Source of the DNA: Dactylellina haptotyla
Lineage: Eukaryota; Ascomycota; Orbiliomycetes; Orbiliales; Orbiliaceae
Direction of reading: 5' to 3'
Length of the DNA: 64,000 nucleotides
Assembly: GCA_031310005.1 (NCBI GenBank)
Contig: CM062383.1
Location: forward strand, 2,108,001-2,172,000
In this document: positions 1,808 through 31,344 of the stretch, one piece after another
Numbering within the stretch: position 1 is the first letter of the stretch
Layout of the letters: every line of letters starts with the position of its first letter
Notes under the pieces: model-generated
Database searches by the model: none
Told to the model about the DNA's origin: nothing
Seen by the model: only the letters and a program-made list of their open reading frames with translations
Position numbers and translations under genes: made by a program

Positions 1808-3371
1808 ATGAGTGCTCCAGACCAGAATTCCCGTCTCCCCTCCTCGTCCGGCGGAGCTAGCTCCAGCAATGGCTACCTCGCTGCCCCGGAAAATGCCACC
1901 AACGACCCCAACCCTCCCACCGTCGCTCCCTTCTCCAAATCGCCTTCTTCTTCCGAGCGAGCTTCCTACCATCAAGTCTTCCAGAAATCGCCCTTGTTAG
2001 TCAGCACCCCGCCTCAGGTCACAAAGGCGCTGTCGCTGGTCTACCCGTATGCGAAGTTTGCGAACCAAGTAGCCGGACTGCTCACTTGGACGACAGCGGA
2101 CCCGTGGGAGAGCTTTCTACTCGTAGCCTCCTTCTGGGCCGTCACCCTCTACGGCGATCTCGTCATAAGATGGCTCGGGAACGTGCTCGTCGTGCTCGTC
2201 TTAGCACTCGGCATGTTTGCCCGCAATCACAATCGAAGTATGAACCACCACCACCACCTTCGCATCTAGACTTTTGAGCACTATAGCTAACACTTAGCCC
2301 TCGCGCGTGCAGAGGATGAACACCCGTCACTTGATGACATCCTCGACACCCTCCAGCTTCTTTCCGCCCGCCTCACCATTCTCACAGACCCTTTCACCAG
2401 TCTCGCCACCTTTCTTTCCGTTGGCCAATCCCCCACCACTGCCACAATGGGCCCGACGCTCATCACCCTTTTCATCCGCATCCTCTTTGTCTCGCCAGTA
2501 TGGATCGCCCTCTGCTCACCACCATTCCACATCATCACCCCCCGACGAGTCGTCATGTTTGTAGGCACCGCCTTCCTATCGTGGCACTCACGACCCGCAA
2601 GAGTTACCAGGACCATCCTCTGGCGGTCCGCTATGATCCGTGATATCTGTGAAAGGATTACGGGACTAAATCTCACCCCGCAAGAGATCCCGCAACCCCC
2701 ACCGCTACCACCGAGAGGTCCACAGGGGCGAAAGGGCTCCGAGGACAAATCCTCTCACAAGCGCACACCATCTTCTGTCGTGGCTTCGCATTTCAAGAAC
2801 AAGTCGTCTCCGCTTGGGAATCTGAACCAAAACCGCGGGACCGCTCCGGGAGTCCGTTTCACATTCTCGATATATGAGAATCAGAGACGGTGGTTGGGCG
2901 TTGGTTGGACATCTAGTCTGTTCGCCTACGAGCGGCCGGCGTGGACCGACGAGCATCTGAGTGCGTGTCCTCCAATGGAAGAATTCCAGTTGCCGGATGC
3001 GAAGAACGGGATGAAGTGGCGGTGGGTGGAGGGGCAGAAATGGCAGGTTGAGGGTGAGGAAGATGGGAAGAAGCCCGGGAACGGGTGGGTATATTTCGAC
3101 AACAAGTGGAGGAACGGCAAGAGGGGTGTGGACAGCTGGAGTGCATATACAAGACGACGAAGGTATGTTTTATTGATTTCCCACGTTATTCCGTCCCTAG
3201 ATTATCCTAATATTTATTTTTGCGACGTCTAGGTGGTATCGCAATGCAGAGCTTGTGGAGGATGATGAGGCGGATGATACCGCCACTGAAGATATGGCAG
3301 AGATCACACCGGCTACGTCAGTAACAAACGAGACGATGGTCACTGAGACCGAAGAGGTCCCCACCAAATGA
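1808..3371 (+). CDS. Pex24p/Pex30-type membrane protein with dysferlin (DysF) domain
   Basis: Proteins of this type (yeast Pex28-Pex32, Yarrowia Pex23/Pex24) sit in ER or peroxisome membranes and control peroxisome number and ER contact sites. Exons 1808-2237, 2313-3162 and 3233-3371 join in frame to give 472 residues; introns start GTATGA and GTATGT and end GCAG and CTAG, the first with a GCTAAC branch-like site. The N-terminal half has hydrophobic segments at about 110-140 (FLLVASFWAVTLYGDLVIRW and following) and 190-230. The DysFN-like motif is at about 325-358 (RFTFSIYENQRRWLG, ERPAWTD). The DysFC-like motif is at about 398-428 (GWVYFDNKWRNG, then VDSWSAYTRRRRWYRNAEL). The tail is acidic. 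I chose the start at 1808 (MSAPDQNSRLPSSSGG) because the in-frame upstream extension to 1553 is low complexity. Which numbered peroxin it corresponds to cannot be decided here. Confidence 0.88.
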
Positions 3372-3891
3372 AGTGATTCCACCGTACAGTGATTATATCA
3401 TCTTCAGCGTCATCTCTAGTACTTAGTTCATATTTGTAGTTATGGGTTTTCACCACACACACTGGCGTTTATTGGAGTTGTTACGGACTCGACGGCTGGA
3501 AATCTACCTATCTATTGCATATAGCCTTTTCCGTAAGGGATCAATCGACGTCTCTTCGACCAGAAACTGTAAATTAAATGTAAACGGCGGGGTCGTGTGA
3601 GCGGTCCTGTGATATCGTACAAGAGCATCGAATATTCTGCGGTTGCCCGCTAGCATGTGCTTTTGGGTGGAGCTTGCCCGCAGTGTGTTGCGGTTGTAGC
3701 CACGAAAGCCCAATTACGCATTCCAAGCAGCTTGTCCAGTTCACGTCGCACGTCCTGTCTCTCAACATAGCTCCCCGTCACCCCTTCGAACACCACCACC
3801 AACCACTTCAACCTCGCCTCCTCCCCTTTCCCTCCCCCATCACCGCCGTCATCAGCCTCCCACGAGAGATACTCCATTCCAAAAGAAGAAC
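3372..3891. other. Intergenic region before YIP1
   Basis: 520 bases between two plus-strand genes. The last part (about 3780-3890) is a C/T-rich leader typical of fungal 5' UTRs. No other gene seen. Confidence 0.6.
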
Positions 3892-4937
3892 ATGTCCTAC
3901 AACTCCGGCTACACCTACGGCAACCCAGCCGGCGGTGGTGCCTCGTCCTCCAACTCCGCCGCCCAGAACCTCCAATTCTACAGCTCCTCCTACGCCGACC
4001 CCACAGGACGGGTATCCGGCCACACGACACCCGCGCAGGGCGCATACGCGAGTTATGGCATGTCCCAGGGCTTCAGTGCCCCGCCGGGCGTGGGAGGAGC
4101 GGATCCGAACAGACAGTTACAGCCTGGTCTGCTGGCAGCGTTTGGGACCAGCGGGTACGATGACGAACTGCCACTGCTGGAAGAACTAGGCATAAACTTT
4201 GGACATATCAAGATGAAGGTAGGCCGTTAACACTGCCCACCTACTTGTCAGCTGGTGGCGTTTACGTTTTACGTTATATTTGGACTAACGAAGATCGGTG
4301 ATAACTAGACACTGGCGGTATTAAACCCTATGGCATCGATGGACCAGCATATAATGGACGACTCGGACCTCGCAGGCCCCATACTCTTCTGCTTCATGTT
4401 TGGCACGTTCTTACTTCTCGTACGTCTTACCATTCCCCCTCCCCATTCTACTCTCCCCTTTGTTGTACCGACAGGGTTGGGGACTAACCTTATCGATAAA
4501 ATCAAACCATGTAGTCCGGTAGAGTTCATTTCGGCTATATCTACGGCTGCGCCCTTCTCGGTTCCATCTCCCTCCATCTAATCCTGAACCTTATGGCCCC
4601 GCTCGGTGTCAGCATAAACTACATCCGCTCCGCGTCCGTCCTCGGATACTGCATGCTCCCGCTGGTGTTCGTCTCGTTCTTCGGCGTGGCGTTCCCGATG
4701 GACGGCGTCGTCGGGTTTGCGGTCACAGCTGTCGCGATCACTTGGTGCACGTATAGTAGCTCGGCCATGTTCGTGGCGGTATTGCGGGTGAGGGATATGC
4801 GGATGCTGGTGGCCTATCCGCTGGCGCTGTTTTATTGCGTGTTTGGGATTATGAGTATCTTTAGCAGTAGAGGGGGCGGCCAGGTTATGGATAAGGTTGC
4901 GAAGACGGCATTGGGGGGGACGGCTAAGAGCTCTTGA
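3892..4937 (+). CDS. YIP1: Golgi/ER transport membrane protein Yip1 (YIPF5 family)
   Basis: Yip1 is a multi-pass membrane protein of ER-to-Golgi traffic that binds prenylated Ypt/Rab GTPases and partners with Yif1 and Yos1. Exons 3892-4218, 4309-4419 and 4515-4937 join in frame (286 residues; donors GTAGGC and GTACGT, acceptors CTAG and GTAG). The protein has a Ser/Tyr/Gly-rich cytosolic N-terminus, then the family signature LPLLEELGINFGHIKMKTLA with VLNP, then DLAGPILFC at the first membrane helix and VHFGYIYG. About five hydrophobic helices fill the C-terminal half. The length matches fungal Yip1. It is in the same orientation as the upstream dysferlin-domain gene, about 520 bases downstream. 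Confidence 0.95.
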
Positions 4938-7498
4938 TTTCCTTTTTTTCTTCTTGATTTTTGGTTTTGTAATTTTGGTTTTAGGTAGGATCGGAAGGGG
5001 GAGGACGGGGTTTGGGAGAGAGCGTAGTATGGTTAGATGAACCATTGATAGAGCAGCAGATGTGGAGAATTAGCGGATACGGAGAAAAGGTAGGGTCTTA
5101 AGGGGTGGTAACCGTAGTTGACGGCCTTCTTGTGTATATTATCATTTTCCCTTTTTTTTTTTTTTTTTATTATGAGAGCTATTGTGGACGTTGGTAGCTT
5201 GTTCCTTTTTTCCATTTTATTTACCCACGCCAGCACTTTTTCTTCTTCATTTCCTCTATACAACTTTGGGACATTTCTTCGGGTAGAGCAAAAGTAATGG
5301 AGTTACATTGTTGATCAAATCCTTTCCACTGTCACCAATGATCTCATGAGCTCGTTCCTAAGCTCAAGAAATCCTATCTTTAAGCCACTGGGAAACCAGA
5401 TGTTGAATCCGGGGTTGGCGGAAAGAACCAGGTGCTATTTTTTGGGTAGTAGGTACTTCCGAGCCGTAGTGAATTACATCGCGGCAAGCGCGGTGAACCA
5501 TAATTCGAAGACCCCCCTCCCCAAGACAGCCCGGCAGATTGGTTTATATTTGGTCGGGATATATCTGAAGGATGCATTAAGATGCTGAATGCGTCTTTGG
5601 AAATGAAGATCGGAGATATATCTAGTAACTATTAGATAAACACATTAGTATCACTGACGCAAGCACGGGTCGTCATCAACCAGCTGGCACGGTGTCGTAG
5701 GGCTGGCTCATCAAGATGATCATTACCGTCCGTGCGGAATGAGAAAATTTTTTTCTTTCTTCTCCAACTCGAGACCAAAGACGCGGCTTCAATTTAGGAT
5801 TCGTGATAAATTTGATAAAAATGAAATAAAATAAAAAAAAGATCTAAAAAAAGGGTAGGGTTCAAGGAATGGGAACCAGATAGAGCAAGCACGGTGAAAC
5901 ACGTCAACATCTACACCCAATGGTGCGCTGTACCGCGATCGTGCTCTAATGCGCCATGATCCTCAGGCCGGGGCGTCCCCAGATACTGGCGCGATGTAAG
6001 TCACCTCTGCCTCTGCATAAAACCCACATCTGCACCATTTGATTGTTTGTCTACGCAGTGTTGAACCTTGCAGATGAATCACCACCGATGGCACTAACGG
6101 GATATGTCGATGGATAAATTGAAGTCGCGGCACAAGTGTGGCGTCGGTAGGACTCTAGACGTAGATGGAAATCAAGCCGATGATGACAAGTCACAACGTG
6201 TGTACTAGTTGTGTGCGCGTGAAAAGAATCCGTTCGAGTGTGATGAAAGCGTAAGTCCGGAAGGCTGTGATATTTGGATCCTTCGGTTAGAGATAGTTAT
6301 CAAGCACCAGTAATGTCAAACGAAAGACAGTGCGAACTCGTCGAAATCTATGGCGAATAAAAAATTAGCAAAAGTGCCCGCAAGGTAAAGTCGCACGGGC
6401 GATAGAAATTCGAAAAGGTAGGCGGCCCGGCAGGCCCTCGATTCCTTTTTTGTTCCGTGCGGAATATGTCGAGAGTGTTCGCGACATTCGTCGCACGCGT
6501 GATTGCGTTCGTAATTTTTCGTTGCAAACCAACTGCGGTTTTGTGCCGCAGACCTCGAGGCCATGACGTTTCAGCTCTTGACAGCGGATAACCGGTCTCG
6601 TAAGGCGATTTGTTGGGAAACCGAGCAGATGCGACGATGCATAATGCACGAGGCCTTCAATCATCACGGTCACACAGCGAAGGTACTTGTAGTTGCGAAG
6701 TCGGATAGCTACTTTTTGATCTCGACTTCTTGCAGAACAGGCACCGGCGCACCCTCGTCGTGTTGTATCACTTGATATCCGATAGGTCAAGAAAAACGCT
6801 GCCGATTCTGGAAATGGGGACTGCCTATAATAAGAAATATTATTTCGAAGCTCACATGTAAGTAAGTAGTTATATTTCTGCTGCCTGATCTCCATCCAGT
6901 AGAGAATCGCGGCGGATGGCGTCCGTTGTTCCGCCTGTGCAGCTTTAGGCATCTTAGCAAGCAGGTTCAAAACGGGTTTTCGAGTGGTGATATGAGGAAA
7001 TTATTAGAATGCTAGTCCGAAGCGAGAAACACTCGCCTTTGGCCGCTCCACTTGGTCGGACCTTGTGAGGCTTGAGGATCTATTGGACTTTCCAAGTTCT
7101 TATTTTATCTCGCATTCCGAATCGCATATTCTGTTATCGGATCGAGATATTATACTGGCCATATTTGATTTTTTTTGGCATGCTGTCTCGACCAATCTCA
7201 TGAGTCAACCCTTGTTGGGTTAGGTGAATTAATTCAGCTCCCTGTATCTTGTGCGGTGGGGTTTTAAGCCGCCTGTTTTTCGTGCTAAGGCTCACTGAAG
7301 GGCCGGCCGGGGCCCCACCCCGCTAGAATGGCTTAGTTTCCGCTCCCTCTGCTCGTTTGCTGTTTGGCTGAGTCGGAGTTGAGATATATAGTGATGATAC
7401 TGTTCGTCCTTTTAACAGAGCTCGAGCCCATTCTCCAACCTCGAACCCTTAACTGAGACGGCAGAGATTTTGAGCCTTCTCACTTTTCGGCCGACGAT
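4938..7498. other. Gene-poor intergenic region
   Basis: 2.56 kb with no convincing gene. It opens with the T-rich 3' region of YIP1, including a poly-T run at about 5150-5168. A 201-codon minus-strand ORF (6970-6365) and its overlapping frames lie in a locally more balanced segment (6400-6970); they have no recognised domain and no coherent intron structure. From about 7380 the sequence is the promoter and C/T-rich leader of the gene at 7499. Confidence 0.5.
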
Positions 7499-28895: not shown

Positions 28896-30666
28896 TTAAT
28901 GCCCCTTGAAAACCCTCATAAAACTAGGAAACCTCGGCACCCCGTCCTTCGTCAGCTCGAAGTACCTATACGTAATCACCGTGCCCACCTTTGGCGGATT
29001 CTTTCTCGTCTTATCATCTAACCCGGTACCAACTTTAAACGTCTTCTTGCTGCCATCCATCATCTCGCACTTTAACGCCCCGCAGCGTCCTTGATTCCTC
29101 CCCTTGCCTTCCTCGTGCCCGATAACCTTCGCCTCGGCGTCGTGGAACGTCTTCACTTTCAAGCACGTCTTTGAACGTTTCTGGATGTACACGCTCTCCG
29201 GTTCTCGCAGCATGAGACCCTCGCCGCCTAATTCTGTGATGCGCTCGAGCTCCTTCAGCACGTGATCTTTATCTTCGACTTCGGTCTGATCGACGTATTT
29301 GACCCATTTGATGCGCTTCCCGTCGAGCAGTTTCTTGAGGGCCTCCTGGCGTTGTTCGAATTTCTTGTTCCCCATGCTCGGGATATCGAAGACGTGGTAT
29401 TCGACTGAGAATTTCCATTTATCGCCGCCGTTTATCGTTTTCACGATGCTCACGGTGTCGATGAACTTGCCACGGCCGCAGGTCAGTTCGCCGTCGAGGG
29501 TTAGGTCCTTTGGGAACTTTTTCGTGAACCAGTCCGGTGCGTAGAATTTGTTGCCTTCGCGAGAGAGAAAATTGCTGCCGTTCCAGTAGGCGCGCACGCC
29601 GTCGAGCTTCTCGGACATCCACCAGCCTGTGGGGTCTATGCCCTTTTCTAGGTCCCATTTCTCAGCAAGGAGGAGTTGGGGACGGAGTTTACTGTTGGGT
29701 GGCTGTGGGGCTTCGCAGTCGTCGTCTTCATTGTCGTCTTCGTCTTCCTCTTCTTCTTCGTCGTCGTCGTCGGAGGCCGCGCGCTTCTTCCCTTTGCCTG
29801 TGATTGTTCGCTTTGCTTTCGTCGAGGCGGTGGCACGACCTTTCCCTTTAGATTTAGATTCCGTGAGGAGGGTGTTTATCCGCTCCATTCGTTTCGCCAT
29901 GATCGATTTCTCGGCCTCGAGTTGCTCCGGGTCCATGGTATCCAGGTCCGAGAAGGTCATCTCCTCGTCTTCGTCAGAGTTCTCTTCGACTTTGACTTTA
30001 CTCCTCTTCGCCTTGGGTTTCACTTCTTCTTCCTCCTCTTCCTCATCCTCATCTTCGTCGTCGTCGTCGTCGTCTTCGACTTTACGTTTCCGATCACGGA
30101 CGTTACCAGTGACAGCTGCCGCTTTCTTTTTCGTATCCTTTTTGGCAGCAGTCTTTGTGGTAGCTTTCCGCCCTTTCAACGGCGGCTGGACGCCAGGGTT
30201 TTTATCCTCGATTCGTTCCCATTCGTATGCCTCGCCTAGGAGGTTCTTTAAGTGTTTACCTACATTCAATATTAACATCTCATACTTGCAGTGTTTTCTA
30301 TGAAAAGGTTACTAAAGAGCAGGGGAAATATGAACATACAAGTCCTAGCGTTAACGGGCCCGCCGTTATTCCTCCAACCGGGACAAGTGCAGTAGAAATG
30401 GTCATAAGTTCGTTTGACGGTGTAAGTTGTCGAACCTGACGATTCGGATTTAATCTCGCGACTGCAGATGATATTGTGTTAATTAAAATTTGAGAAGTGA
30501 TTAATAGAAAAAGAAATAAACGGGTTGCATACGTTTCGCCATCTTTAAGTAGAACTTTAGGCTTGATTCCGTTCTGTACGTTTGAATGGTTGCGGTTAGT
30601 TGATGTTGGATTTTGATATACAGGTGGCGGGGGTTCGGCAGCATACAAACTCGGCCAATTCATCAT
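28896..30666 (-). CDS. SWIM zinc finger - small ATP-dependent DNA ligase fusion protein
   Basis: Minus-strand exons 30666-30533, 30461-30340 and 30259-28896 join in frame to 539 residues. Residues 45-90 form a SWIM zinc finger: Cys69-X-Cys71-X14-Cys86-X-His88 (YCTCPGWRNNGG, then ARTCKHLKNLLGE), assembled across the second intron. Residues 115-270 are Lys-rich and Asp/Glu-rich, probably nuclear and disordered. The ATP ligase core follows. It has motif I EKLDGVRAYW (catalytic Lys303), motif III LDGEL (about 340), IIIa SVEYHVFDIP, IV EGLMLREP (about 432) and V CLKVKTF (Lys453, Lys455). An OB-fold tail ends FPSFMRVFKGH. There is no ligase DNA-binding domain, so it resembles the minimal kinetoplast/bacterial-type ligases rather than Lig1 or Lig4. 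Expected reaction: ATP-dependent sealing of nicked DNA. SWIM presumably supplies DNA or protein binding (inference). Introns start GTATGC and GTATGT and end GCAG and GTAG. Confidence 0.88.
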
Positions 30667-31344
30667 GCTCGGTAGCAGGCATATTGGAATGTAAATTGGT
30701 CTACTGCGTTTTTATGGAAGTATTGTATTTCCCCAATTGTATTCTATATAGACACACTCAATTGAAGAAATCGAGAAAGAAAGACAGAAAAAAGACGCGA
30801 AAATAAGGAGCTATTTATCAGTTTCGGCCGTGCGAGCTAAGCTAAACAGCTGAAATTTATTTCAACGCGCATTTTGCGTCCATGAAACAGAACCGAAATG
30901 AGTCGGCATAGTCAGCATATCCCACGTCAGAATGCGGTAGCTGTAGGCAGGTTAGAAGGCGTCGCGAACAAGGCACCCCGCGCGAACGCCCAAAAAAAGG
31001 TAAGAATCAGAGCTTTCTCGTATTCGCGTGCGCAATCCCATGACTTCGTGTTCCGAACGAGATTGCAATTTTAAGCCACGATGAGTCAATTGAATAGGAA
31101 ACAGGTCGTCGGGTGCAGTGAGTTTTGGTGTCAGGGCAATGCAAGTCATTGCTGCAGGGATTGATGACTCAATTCGGTCGCCAACGTAGGCCGGCCATCC
31201 AATTATATCGGAGCGTTTACCCTTCCTTTTCTCAGGCCAGGCCAATACTGGCGGAATTCCAACGGATCAAAAAGAAATATTTGGAAGAAAGAAAAGAAAG
31301 AAAAGAAAAAAACGAGGGAGATCTGAAAAATTGTCCGAGGGTGA
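30667..31344. other. Intergenic region between the MFS gene and the ligase gene
   Basis: 678 bases between two minus-strand genes; 3' flank of the MFS transporter and promoter of the ligase. Purine-rich at 31260-31320. No other gene seen. Confidence 0.6.

Follow-up and report, generated by a model that had tools for sequence, protein, structure and literature searches.

A LigE-type DNA ligase with an N-terminal SWIM-type module in the fungus Dactylellina haptotyla, a putative eukaryotic member of a fusion present in bacteria and large phages

In its accessible text, a survey of LigE-type DNA ligases (PMC8455567, Sci Rep 2021) predicts a periplasmic leader for many proteobacterial members and reports a leader peptide in 144 of 208 representative bacterial nodes in the canonical LigE cluster. 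The leaderless members of that cluster are mostly Myxococcales, and the leader therefore does not define the family. The same text describes a leaderless Myxococcales cluster with a few eukaryotic, mainly fungal, sequences and gives the biological function of LigE as not known (PMC8455567). According to the available part of a second article (PMC10665377, Nat Commun 2023), LigE-type ligases occur in several eukaryotic groups with a patchy distribution, the enzyme of bdelloid rotifers is induced by radiation, produces a nuclear signal, and raises the radio-tolerance of human cells, and the enzyme of Mortierella is induced by X-rays. Fungal LigE is already in print. Here, we analyzed a window of 64,000 nucleotides from Dactylellina haptotyla (assembly GCA_031310005.1, contig CM062383.1, positions 2,108,001 to 2,172,000). 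On the minus strand of the window, splice signals and homology agree with a gene of four exons encoding a 520-residue protein, in which a SWIM-type module precedes a LigE-type ligase core (SWIM-LigE).

The ligase core is assigned to the LigE type by its profile scores. The NCBIfam LigE-type model NF006592 matched at 315.5 bits (cut-off of 200), the next model at 60.7 bits, and the Lig1-type model TIGR00574 at 40 bits against a cut-off of 217.8. Domains PF01068 (49.5 bits, cut-off of 26.2) and PF14743 (99.1 bits, cut-off of 28) were both detected, in agreement with the ligase domains recognized by a first-pass annotation of the window. The best solved relatives of the core are the LigE crystal structures 8u6x, 4d05, and 6gdr. 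Motifs KLDG (residue 284), DGEL (322), EGLM (413), and LKVK (433), which we take to be the ligase catalytic motifs I, III, IV, and V, are intact, and the core retains 57 of the 59 positions that are invariant across ten viral-contig relatives. These motifs had been correctly located in the same polypeptide as the finger, with a lysine numbered 303 that is Lys284 in the 520-residue model. The first-pass description of a minimal ligase of kinetoplast DNA or bacterial type was sound with respect to the minimal core and incomplete with respect to the class, which is specifically LigE. The notion of an RNA-end ligase, or of a nucleotidyltransferase other than a DNA ligase, draws on weak matches at E ≤ 1 to RNA_ligase (7 of 86 relatives) and mRNA_cap_enzyme (6 of 86), which are expected within the superfamily; it is very improbable in view of the 315-bit score of the LigE-type DNA ligase model and of the presence of the LigE-type OB domain.

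No N-terminal DNA-binding domain of Lig1 or Lig4 was found in the protein by Pfam at E ≤ 1, as had been noted from the sequence. Membership in Lig1 or Lig4 was excluded by the lack of this domain, by the TIGR00574 score, and by a search of the genome of the fungus itself (39.8 Mb in 11 contigs), in which the core found only itself and a weak match in a Lig4-like gene (E of 0.03). This genome gave 74 matches to the Fungal_trans family, which was matched in none of 14 control genomes, as suits a fungus. The earlier view of a lineage distinct from the fungal Lig1 and Lig4 was thereby upheld. The designation of a third fungal DNA ligase was not, since the genome contains five PF01068 places, the SWIM-LigE gene and four others. 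Inspection of the reading frames by eye indicated that the latter comprise two Lig1-like genes, one Lig4-like gene (L002), and one diverged gene. PF14743 was detected at a single place in the genome at E ≤ 1. The Lig1-like genes are located on contigs C1 (L001) and C3 (L003), and the latter displays the sequence TLDYFFG near its start, presumably a PIP-box-like motif. The diverged gene (L004, C10:831541-832110) extends over several frames, matched PF01068 at 54.6 bits, and by eye differs from Lig1, Lig4, and the SWIM-LigE gene.

The SWIM finger is defined by the motif CxCx(n)CxH. In the fungal protein, Cys50, Cys52, Cys67, and His69 form the motif C-x-C-x14-C-x-H within an N-terminal, putatively zinc-binding module of the SWIM type, about 65 residues long. 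The four ligands are invariant in alignments A1 and A2, which contain 10 of the 11 viral SWIM loci obtained by scanning with the fungal core (L075, a near copy of L074, was omitted), and in alignment A4, which took in 86 of 94 SWIM-LigE references. The module has its own flank, DGE...GSG..PY, and a signature, CPAWRNQ...RTCKH, and the fungal protein retains 10 of the 15 positions of the SWIM region that are invariant across the ten viral-contig relatives. A profile built from 10 viral-contig modules, to the exclusion of the fungal sequence, matched the spliced protein at 59.6 bits (single-domain score of 58.2 bits) and, of 1000 shuffled versions of the first 90 residues, reported none at E ≤ 10. 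These results support the splice junctions. A chance motif as the origin of the finger was excluded by the same profile and the 1000 shuffles. The frame of exon 3 scored 39.6 bits without splicing, and the next frame of the window 8.2 bits; the flanking exons therefore contribute approximately 20 bits.

The Cys67 codon, TGT, is assembled from position 30340 joined to 30259-30258. Creation of the SWIM motif by splicing had been correctly recognized in the first-pass annotation, in which the residues were numbered 19 too high (Cys69, Cys71, Cys86, and His88) and three exons were counted instead of four, exon 1 (30682-30647) having been missed. The SWIM exons could alternatively derive from another transcript, or carry a chance motif, if the ligase started downstream, for example at ATG 30278, which lies within intron 3 and opens a frame of 460 residues containing the whole ligase. 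This is extremely improbable, since the match to the independent profile runs from exon 2 through exon 3 into the beginning of exon 4, ordered and spaced as in the relatives, with 0 of 1000 shuffles reported.

ATG 30682 is probably the start codon of the 520-residue model. The alternative, ATG 30666, requires retention of intron 1, in a frame that is also open, and leads to a protein longer by 19 residues. Splice signals favor ATG 30682, which was chosen for this reason, and the frame of exon 1, if unspliced, meets a stop codon within intron 1. The score of the finger with the independent profile was nearly identical in the two versions (59.6 versus 59.5 bits). Homologues start only after intron 1, which is therefore without homology support, and they are uninterrupted over introns 2 and 3, thus providing indirect support for both junctions. 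The coordinates are collected in Table 1. The GC content at third codon positions was 0.71 for the ligase core (28899-29696), 0.47 for the SWIM exons, and 0.44 to 0.63 for seven other sampled coding frames in the window. A search of the 64-kb window for tRNAs revealed none.

Table 1. Features of the SWIM-LigE gene of D. haptotyla (positions in the window).
Feature	Position	Strand	Description
Exon 1	30647..30682	-	Residues 1-12, MPATEHDELAEF; start codon probably at 30682-30680; signals of the following intron: donor GTATGC, branch-like CTAAC, acceptor CAG
Intron 1	30574..30646	-	73 nt, GTATGC...CAG, CTAAC inside
Exon 2	30533..30573	-	Start of SWIM module, ...LKDGET; resembles the conserved DGE-like start in viral SWIM-LigE modules
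Intron 2	30462..30532	-	71 nt, GTATGC...CAG; homologues continuous over junction
Exon 3	30340..30461	-	Bulk of SWIM module; Cys50 30391-30389, Cys52 30385-30383; first base of Cys67 codon at 30340
Intron 3	30260..30339	-	80 nt, GTATGT...TAG; interrupts Cys67 codon; homologues continuous over junction
Exon 4, including stop	28896..30259	-	Remainder of Cys67, His69 at 30254-30252, linker, ligase core
SWIM-type module	30210..30552 (introns 2 and 3 included)	-	Residues 20-83, exons 2-4; hmmsearch with independent profile, alignments A1 and A2
Charged linker	29685..30209	-	Residues 84-258 (175 residues), 53% D/E/K/R, basic clusters RKRK, KRSK, KKR
Adenylation (nucleotidyltransferase) domain PF01068	29151..29636	-	Residues 275-436; Lys284 codon 29609-29607
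OB domain PF14743 (LigE-type OB)	28911..29111	-	Residues 450-516

The module is classed as SWIM-type and not as a member of the Pfam SWIM family. A single profile comparison with three SWIM segments chosen by hand gave a probability of 96.9% and an E-value of 2e-10; one of these segments (L008) scores above the Pfam cut-off, the second (L228) just below (18.7 versus 19.6 bits), and the third is L232. The module modeled alone by AlphaFold had a predicted local distance difference test (pLDDT) value of 86.7. Searching the PDB with the sequence profile of the module returned matches at E-values of 1 or worse in all cases.

To determine the distribution of the fusion, we scanned collections of prokaryotes, viruses, phages, and plasmids. 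Among the best 80 loci found on viral contigs with the fungal core, 11 have SWIM in the same frame. When the SWIM alignment alone was used on the viral contigs, 54 stretches matched and 21 loci were confirmed; SWIM and the LigE core were in one frame in all 21, with 11 on the same contigs as the 11 SWIM loci of the core scan and 10 new. The fusion is also present in a 485-kb record of an uncultured phage (LR745208), with the core motif S-Y-K-L-D-G. In prokaryotic genomes, the SWIM-LigE alignment matched 279 stretches, 265 of which were confirmed; among the best 80 of these 265 loci, 76 encode SWIM joined to LigE, a proportion that is no frequency among all LigE because the query contained SWIM. 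According to their titles, the 80 loci belong mostly to Myxococcota (Deltaproteobacteria) and Planctomycetota; further titles name Obscuribacterales, Riflebacteria, and metagenome-assembled genomes (MAGs) of Acidobacteriota, Bacteroidales, and Helarchaeota, the labels of MAGs being sometimes wrong. In the phylum of Archangium, the module matched 20 of 97 genomes at E ≤ 0.01, including 17 strong matches (E ≤ 1e-26), and the nine loci inspected all encode SWIM-LigE. In the phylum of Blastopirellula, 2 of 59 genomes matched at E ≤ 1e-8, the Blastopirellula genome included. These sequence matches depict a patchy distribution. The first-pass proposal that SWIM and a charged linker replaced a missing DNA-binding domain has to be abandoned, as SWIM and LigE are already fused in bacteria, in one archaeal MAG, and in large phages.

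Several individual loci deserve mention. In two IMG/VR contigs (L175 and L177, frames from approximately 2652 and 3961), a complete SWIM-LigE adjoins a second SWIM frame of 182 residues, which comprises SWIM and the start of the ligase, the core motif searched for not being found in it; this frame is possibly a duplicated, decaying, or interrupted copy. Locus L093, from a MAG titled Klebsiella pneumoniae, encodes a SWIM-LigE that is close to planctomycete rows in the trees described below, and the title is probably a labeling or binning error. SWIM was detected in no forward frame of four close relatives from Myxococcota (L094, L113, L132, and L159). The quick tree described below places these relatives within the SWIM group, and the module has therefore probably been lost more than once. 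A Foldseek search of viral models with a full bacterial SWIM-LigE model listed 50 matches, all ligases or unnamed proteins. The best viral structure match was BFVD A0A481YRY4 (Marseillevirus LCMAC101, 654 residues), a LigE-like ligase of a giant virus with a long extra part and 38% identity over 285 columns. For one bacterial SWIM-LigE and the fungal core, participation in a defense system was rejected, PADLOC giving no match at E ≤ 0.01; the sole family matched in a scan of PHROGs was the ligase phrog_114.

Each of ten genomes bearing the fusion contained one strong match to the module (E ≤ 2.8e-23), the next best match having an E-value of 0.059. The module therefore appears to be dedicated to LigE. 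SWIM might nonetheless be mainly a protein-protein docking module, through which a recombinase or another repair factor would recruit the ligase. SWIM domains occur in recombination and chromatin proteins, and the weak profile match in one bearing genome (L228) corresponds to a near-cut-off Pfam SWIM in a long reading frame, both of which would fit a docking role. However, all 21 viral-contig loci that were confirmed and all nine loci inspected from the phylum of Archangium have the module together with LigE, and no constant neighbor gene was seen, so that SWIM may act directly on DNA. Docking is a serious, if somewhat doubtful, alternative.

The neighborhood was analyzed by BLAST clustering of 513 crude neighbor frames from the 80 prokaryotic loci; the ligase frame could be placed at 60 of these loci, and some neighbor distances are unreliable. 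The largest cluster, present at 11 loci, seems to consist of spurious high-GC frames. A family containing an AAA ATPase is located near SWIM-LigE at seven loci with planctomycete titles (L142 at 2420-3928, L129, L141, L151, L155, L163, and L171), the member of L142 alone having been scored by Pfam. A WGR-like protein is similarly located at 3 of 80 loci (L111 at 5303-7171, with similar frames in L092 and L166), the member of L111 alone having been scored by Pfam.

The identity of the fungal core is 53-57% with the 15 prokaryotic and viral relatives that score best and 39-46% with three LigE-like genes from Photobacterium, Alteromonas, and Neisseria. Identity alone fails to separate the groups because one of the best 15 relatives (L094, Polyangia) is devoid of SWIM. 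For phylogeny, the 69 SWIM-less viral loci were represented by 26 of their number, and a quick tree was built from 133 cores (130 distinct), thinned to 116 rows. In this tree, 89 rows with SWIM, including the fungus, and 5 rows without it formed a group of 94 rows with a Shimodaira-Hasegawa-like approximate likelihood ratio test (SH-aLRT) value of 92. A careful tree of 80 rows was obtained after six rows with long branches and some of the bacterial ones had been removed; the SWIM label requires 7 changes in this tree, for which the bootstrap had not settled. In a tree of SWIM plus core (57 rows), the long branch of the fungus joined the bacterial side with weak support (46/84). In these trees, the fungus thus falls within or next to the SWIM group, with weak support. 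A stronger argument than the trees comes from the common SWIM module, the flanks and order of which match: the fungus would have the same fusion and would not have made one itself.

We consider it moderately probable that the fungal protein belongs, as a eukaryotic member, to a SWIM-LigE lineage, that it was acquired horizontally as a ready-made fusion, and that it acts as an accessory nuclear repair ligase with SWIM as a tether. Several observations weigh against this proposal. Pfam SWIM (PF04434), which the first-pass annotation had proposed as a check of the finger, did not match the protein at E ≤ 1 and matched only 9 of 86 relatives at this threshold (best E of 0.0073). Foldseek and VIA searches with the modeled SWIM module alone gave no convincing match to a solved fold. 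No conserved operon was seen around the prokaryotic loci in the crude test of the 80 neighborhoods. The fungal branch is long and its placement weak, and in both trees including L013, a viral row devoid of SWIM, the fungus was weakly paired with this row (82 in the quick tree and 86/24 in the careful tree). In an approximately unbiased (AU) test, grouping the fungus with 16 SWIM-less rows on one side of a branch was not rejected, with a p-value of 0.547 and a log-likelihood 2.80 above that of the free tree; this test decides nothing because such a branch also fits the outermost place for the fungus in the SWIM group. The fusion might also be ancient in eukaryotes and vertically inherited, rather than gained later from bacteria or phages, as would fit the long, weakly supported fungal branch and the occurrence of LigE-type ligases in several eukaryotic groups. 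This scenario is rather unlikely given the patchiness of the eukaryotic distribution, as reported in the available part of PMC10665377, and the 53-57% identity of the core to prokaryotic and viral relatives.

Under horizontal acquisition, the ready-made fusion would have entered the fungus or an ancestor, and the linker would have lengthened afterwards. The ligase motifs predict ATP-dependent sealing of nicks according to established ligase chemistry: ATP would adenylate Lys284, and the AMP would be moved to the 5' phosphate of the nick, which would then be sealed. Since LigE cores are devoid of the encircling DNA-binding domain of Lig1 and Lig4, we propose that SWIM, on a flexible charged tether, may recruit the core to DNA damage or to a partner in repair. 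The linker, 53% of which is charged, contains basic clusters that may favor nuclear import, and no hydrophobic leader peptide was seen by eye in the N-terminus, MPATEHDELAEFNG...; a nuclear enzyme is inferred for these reasons. A mitochondrial role, replacing or assisting mitochondrial Lig1, had been suggested by the first-pass annotation, and an extra small ligase could indeed serve mitochondrial DNA. We regard this as improbable, since the N-terminus is acidic and without a leader by eye, the basic clusters of the linker are of the nuclear-signal type and more in line with the nucleus, and bdelloid LigE was seen in nuclei according to the available text of PMC10665377. By analogy with the LigE of bdelloid rotifers and Mortierella, which bears PBZ, the fungal enzyme would complement Lig1 and Lig4 as an accessory ligase for repair, in a comparable role.

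On a broader scale, it is an evenly balanced proposition that SWIM-LigE represents an unrecognized class of mobile repair ligases, in which a divergent SWIM would be a built-in targeting part recognizing a substrate or a partner. This class would have a patchy distribution covering Myxococcota, Planctomycetota, and other bacteria as well as an archaeal MAG and very large phages; fungi would have acquired it in its entirety, and splicing would reassemble the finger in them. A conserved finger in place of a leader, common to bacteria, large phages, and the fungus, suggests an intracellular repair role for LigE, and deletion of the finger makes this role testable. The domain is missed by the standard Pfam model and broken up by a single-frame scan of the fungal gene. 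The words 'swim' and 'zinc' were not found in the main text of PMC8455567, as accessible, nor 'swim' in the available texts of PMC10665377 and PMC5052709, and no mention of a SWIM module on a DNA ligase was found in the open-licence literature searched. Thus, the SWIM module of the LigE lineage appears to be unreported in the searchable open-licence literature.

The fungal protein resembles the crystallized LigE enzymes (4d05, 6gdr, and 8u6x) in combining PF01068 and PF14743 without the DNA-binding domain of Lig1 and Lig4, and differs from them by the SWIM module, the long charged linker, and a eukaryotic gene with three introns. The leaderless Myxococcales and fungal cluster described in the accessible text of PMC8455567 is probably the same lineage as SWIM-LigE, which is frequent among the Myxococcota loci that we found. 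With respect to the SWIM zinc finger (PF04434), the module shares the C-x-C-x14-C-x-H motif and similarity to the three chosen segments, whereas it is missed in the fungal protein by the Pfam model and displays its own flank and signature. The closest parallel in eukaryotes is offered by AvLigE of bdelloid rotifers and MvLigE of Mortierella verticillata, for which the available text also describes a LigE core, a proposed horizontal acquisition, an added zinc-finger module, and a proposed role in repair (PMC10665377). The PBZ finger of the latter enzymes is C-terminal (PMC10665377), whereas the SWIM-type module of the fungal protein is N-terminal and common to prokaryotes and phages. Beside bdelloids and Mortierella, D. 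haptotyla would provide a further case of a eukaryote that retains LigE of bacterial type together with an extra module resembling a zinc finger.
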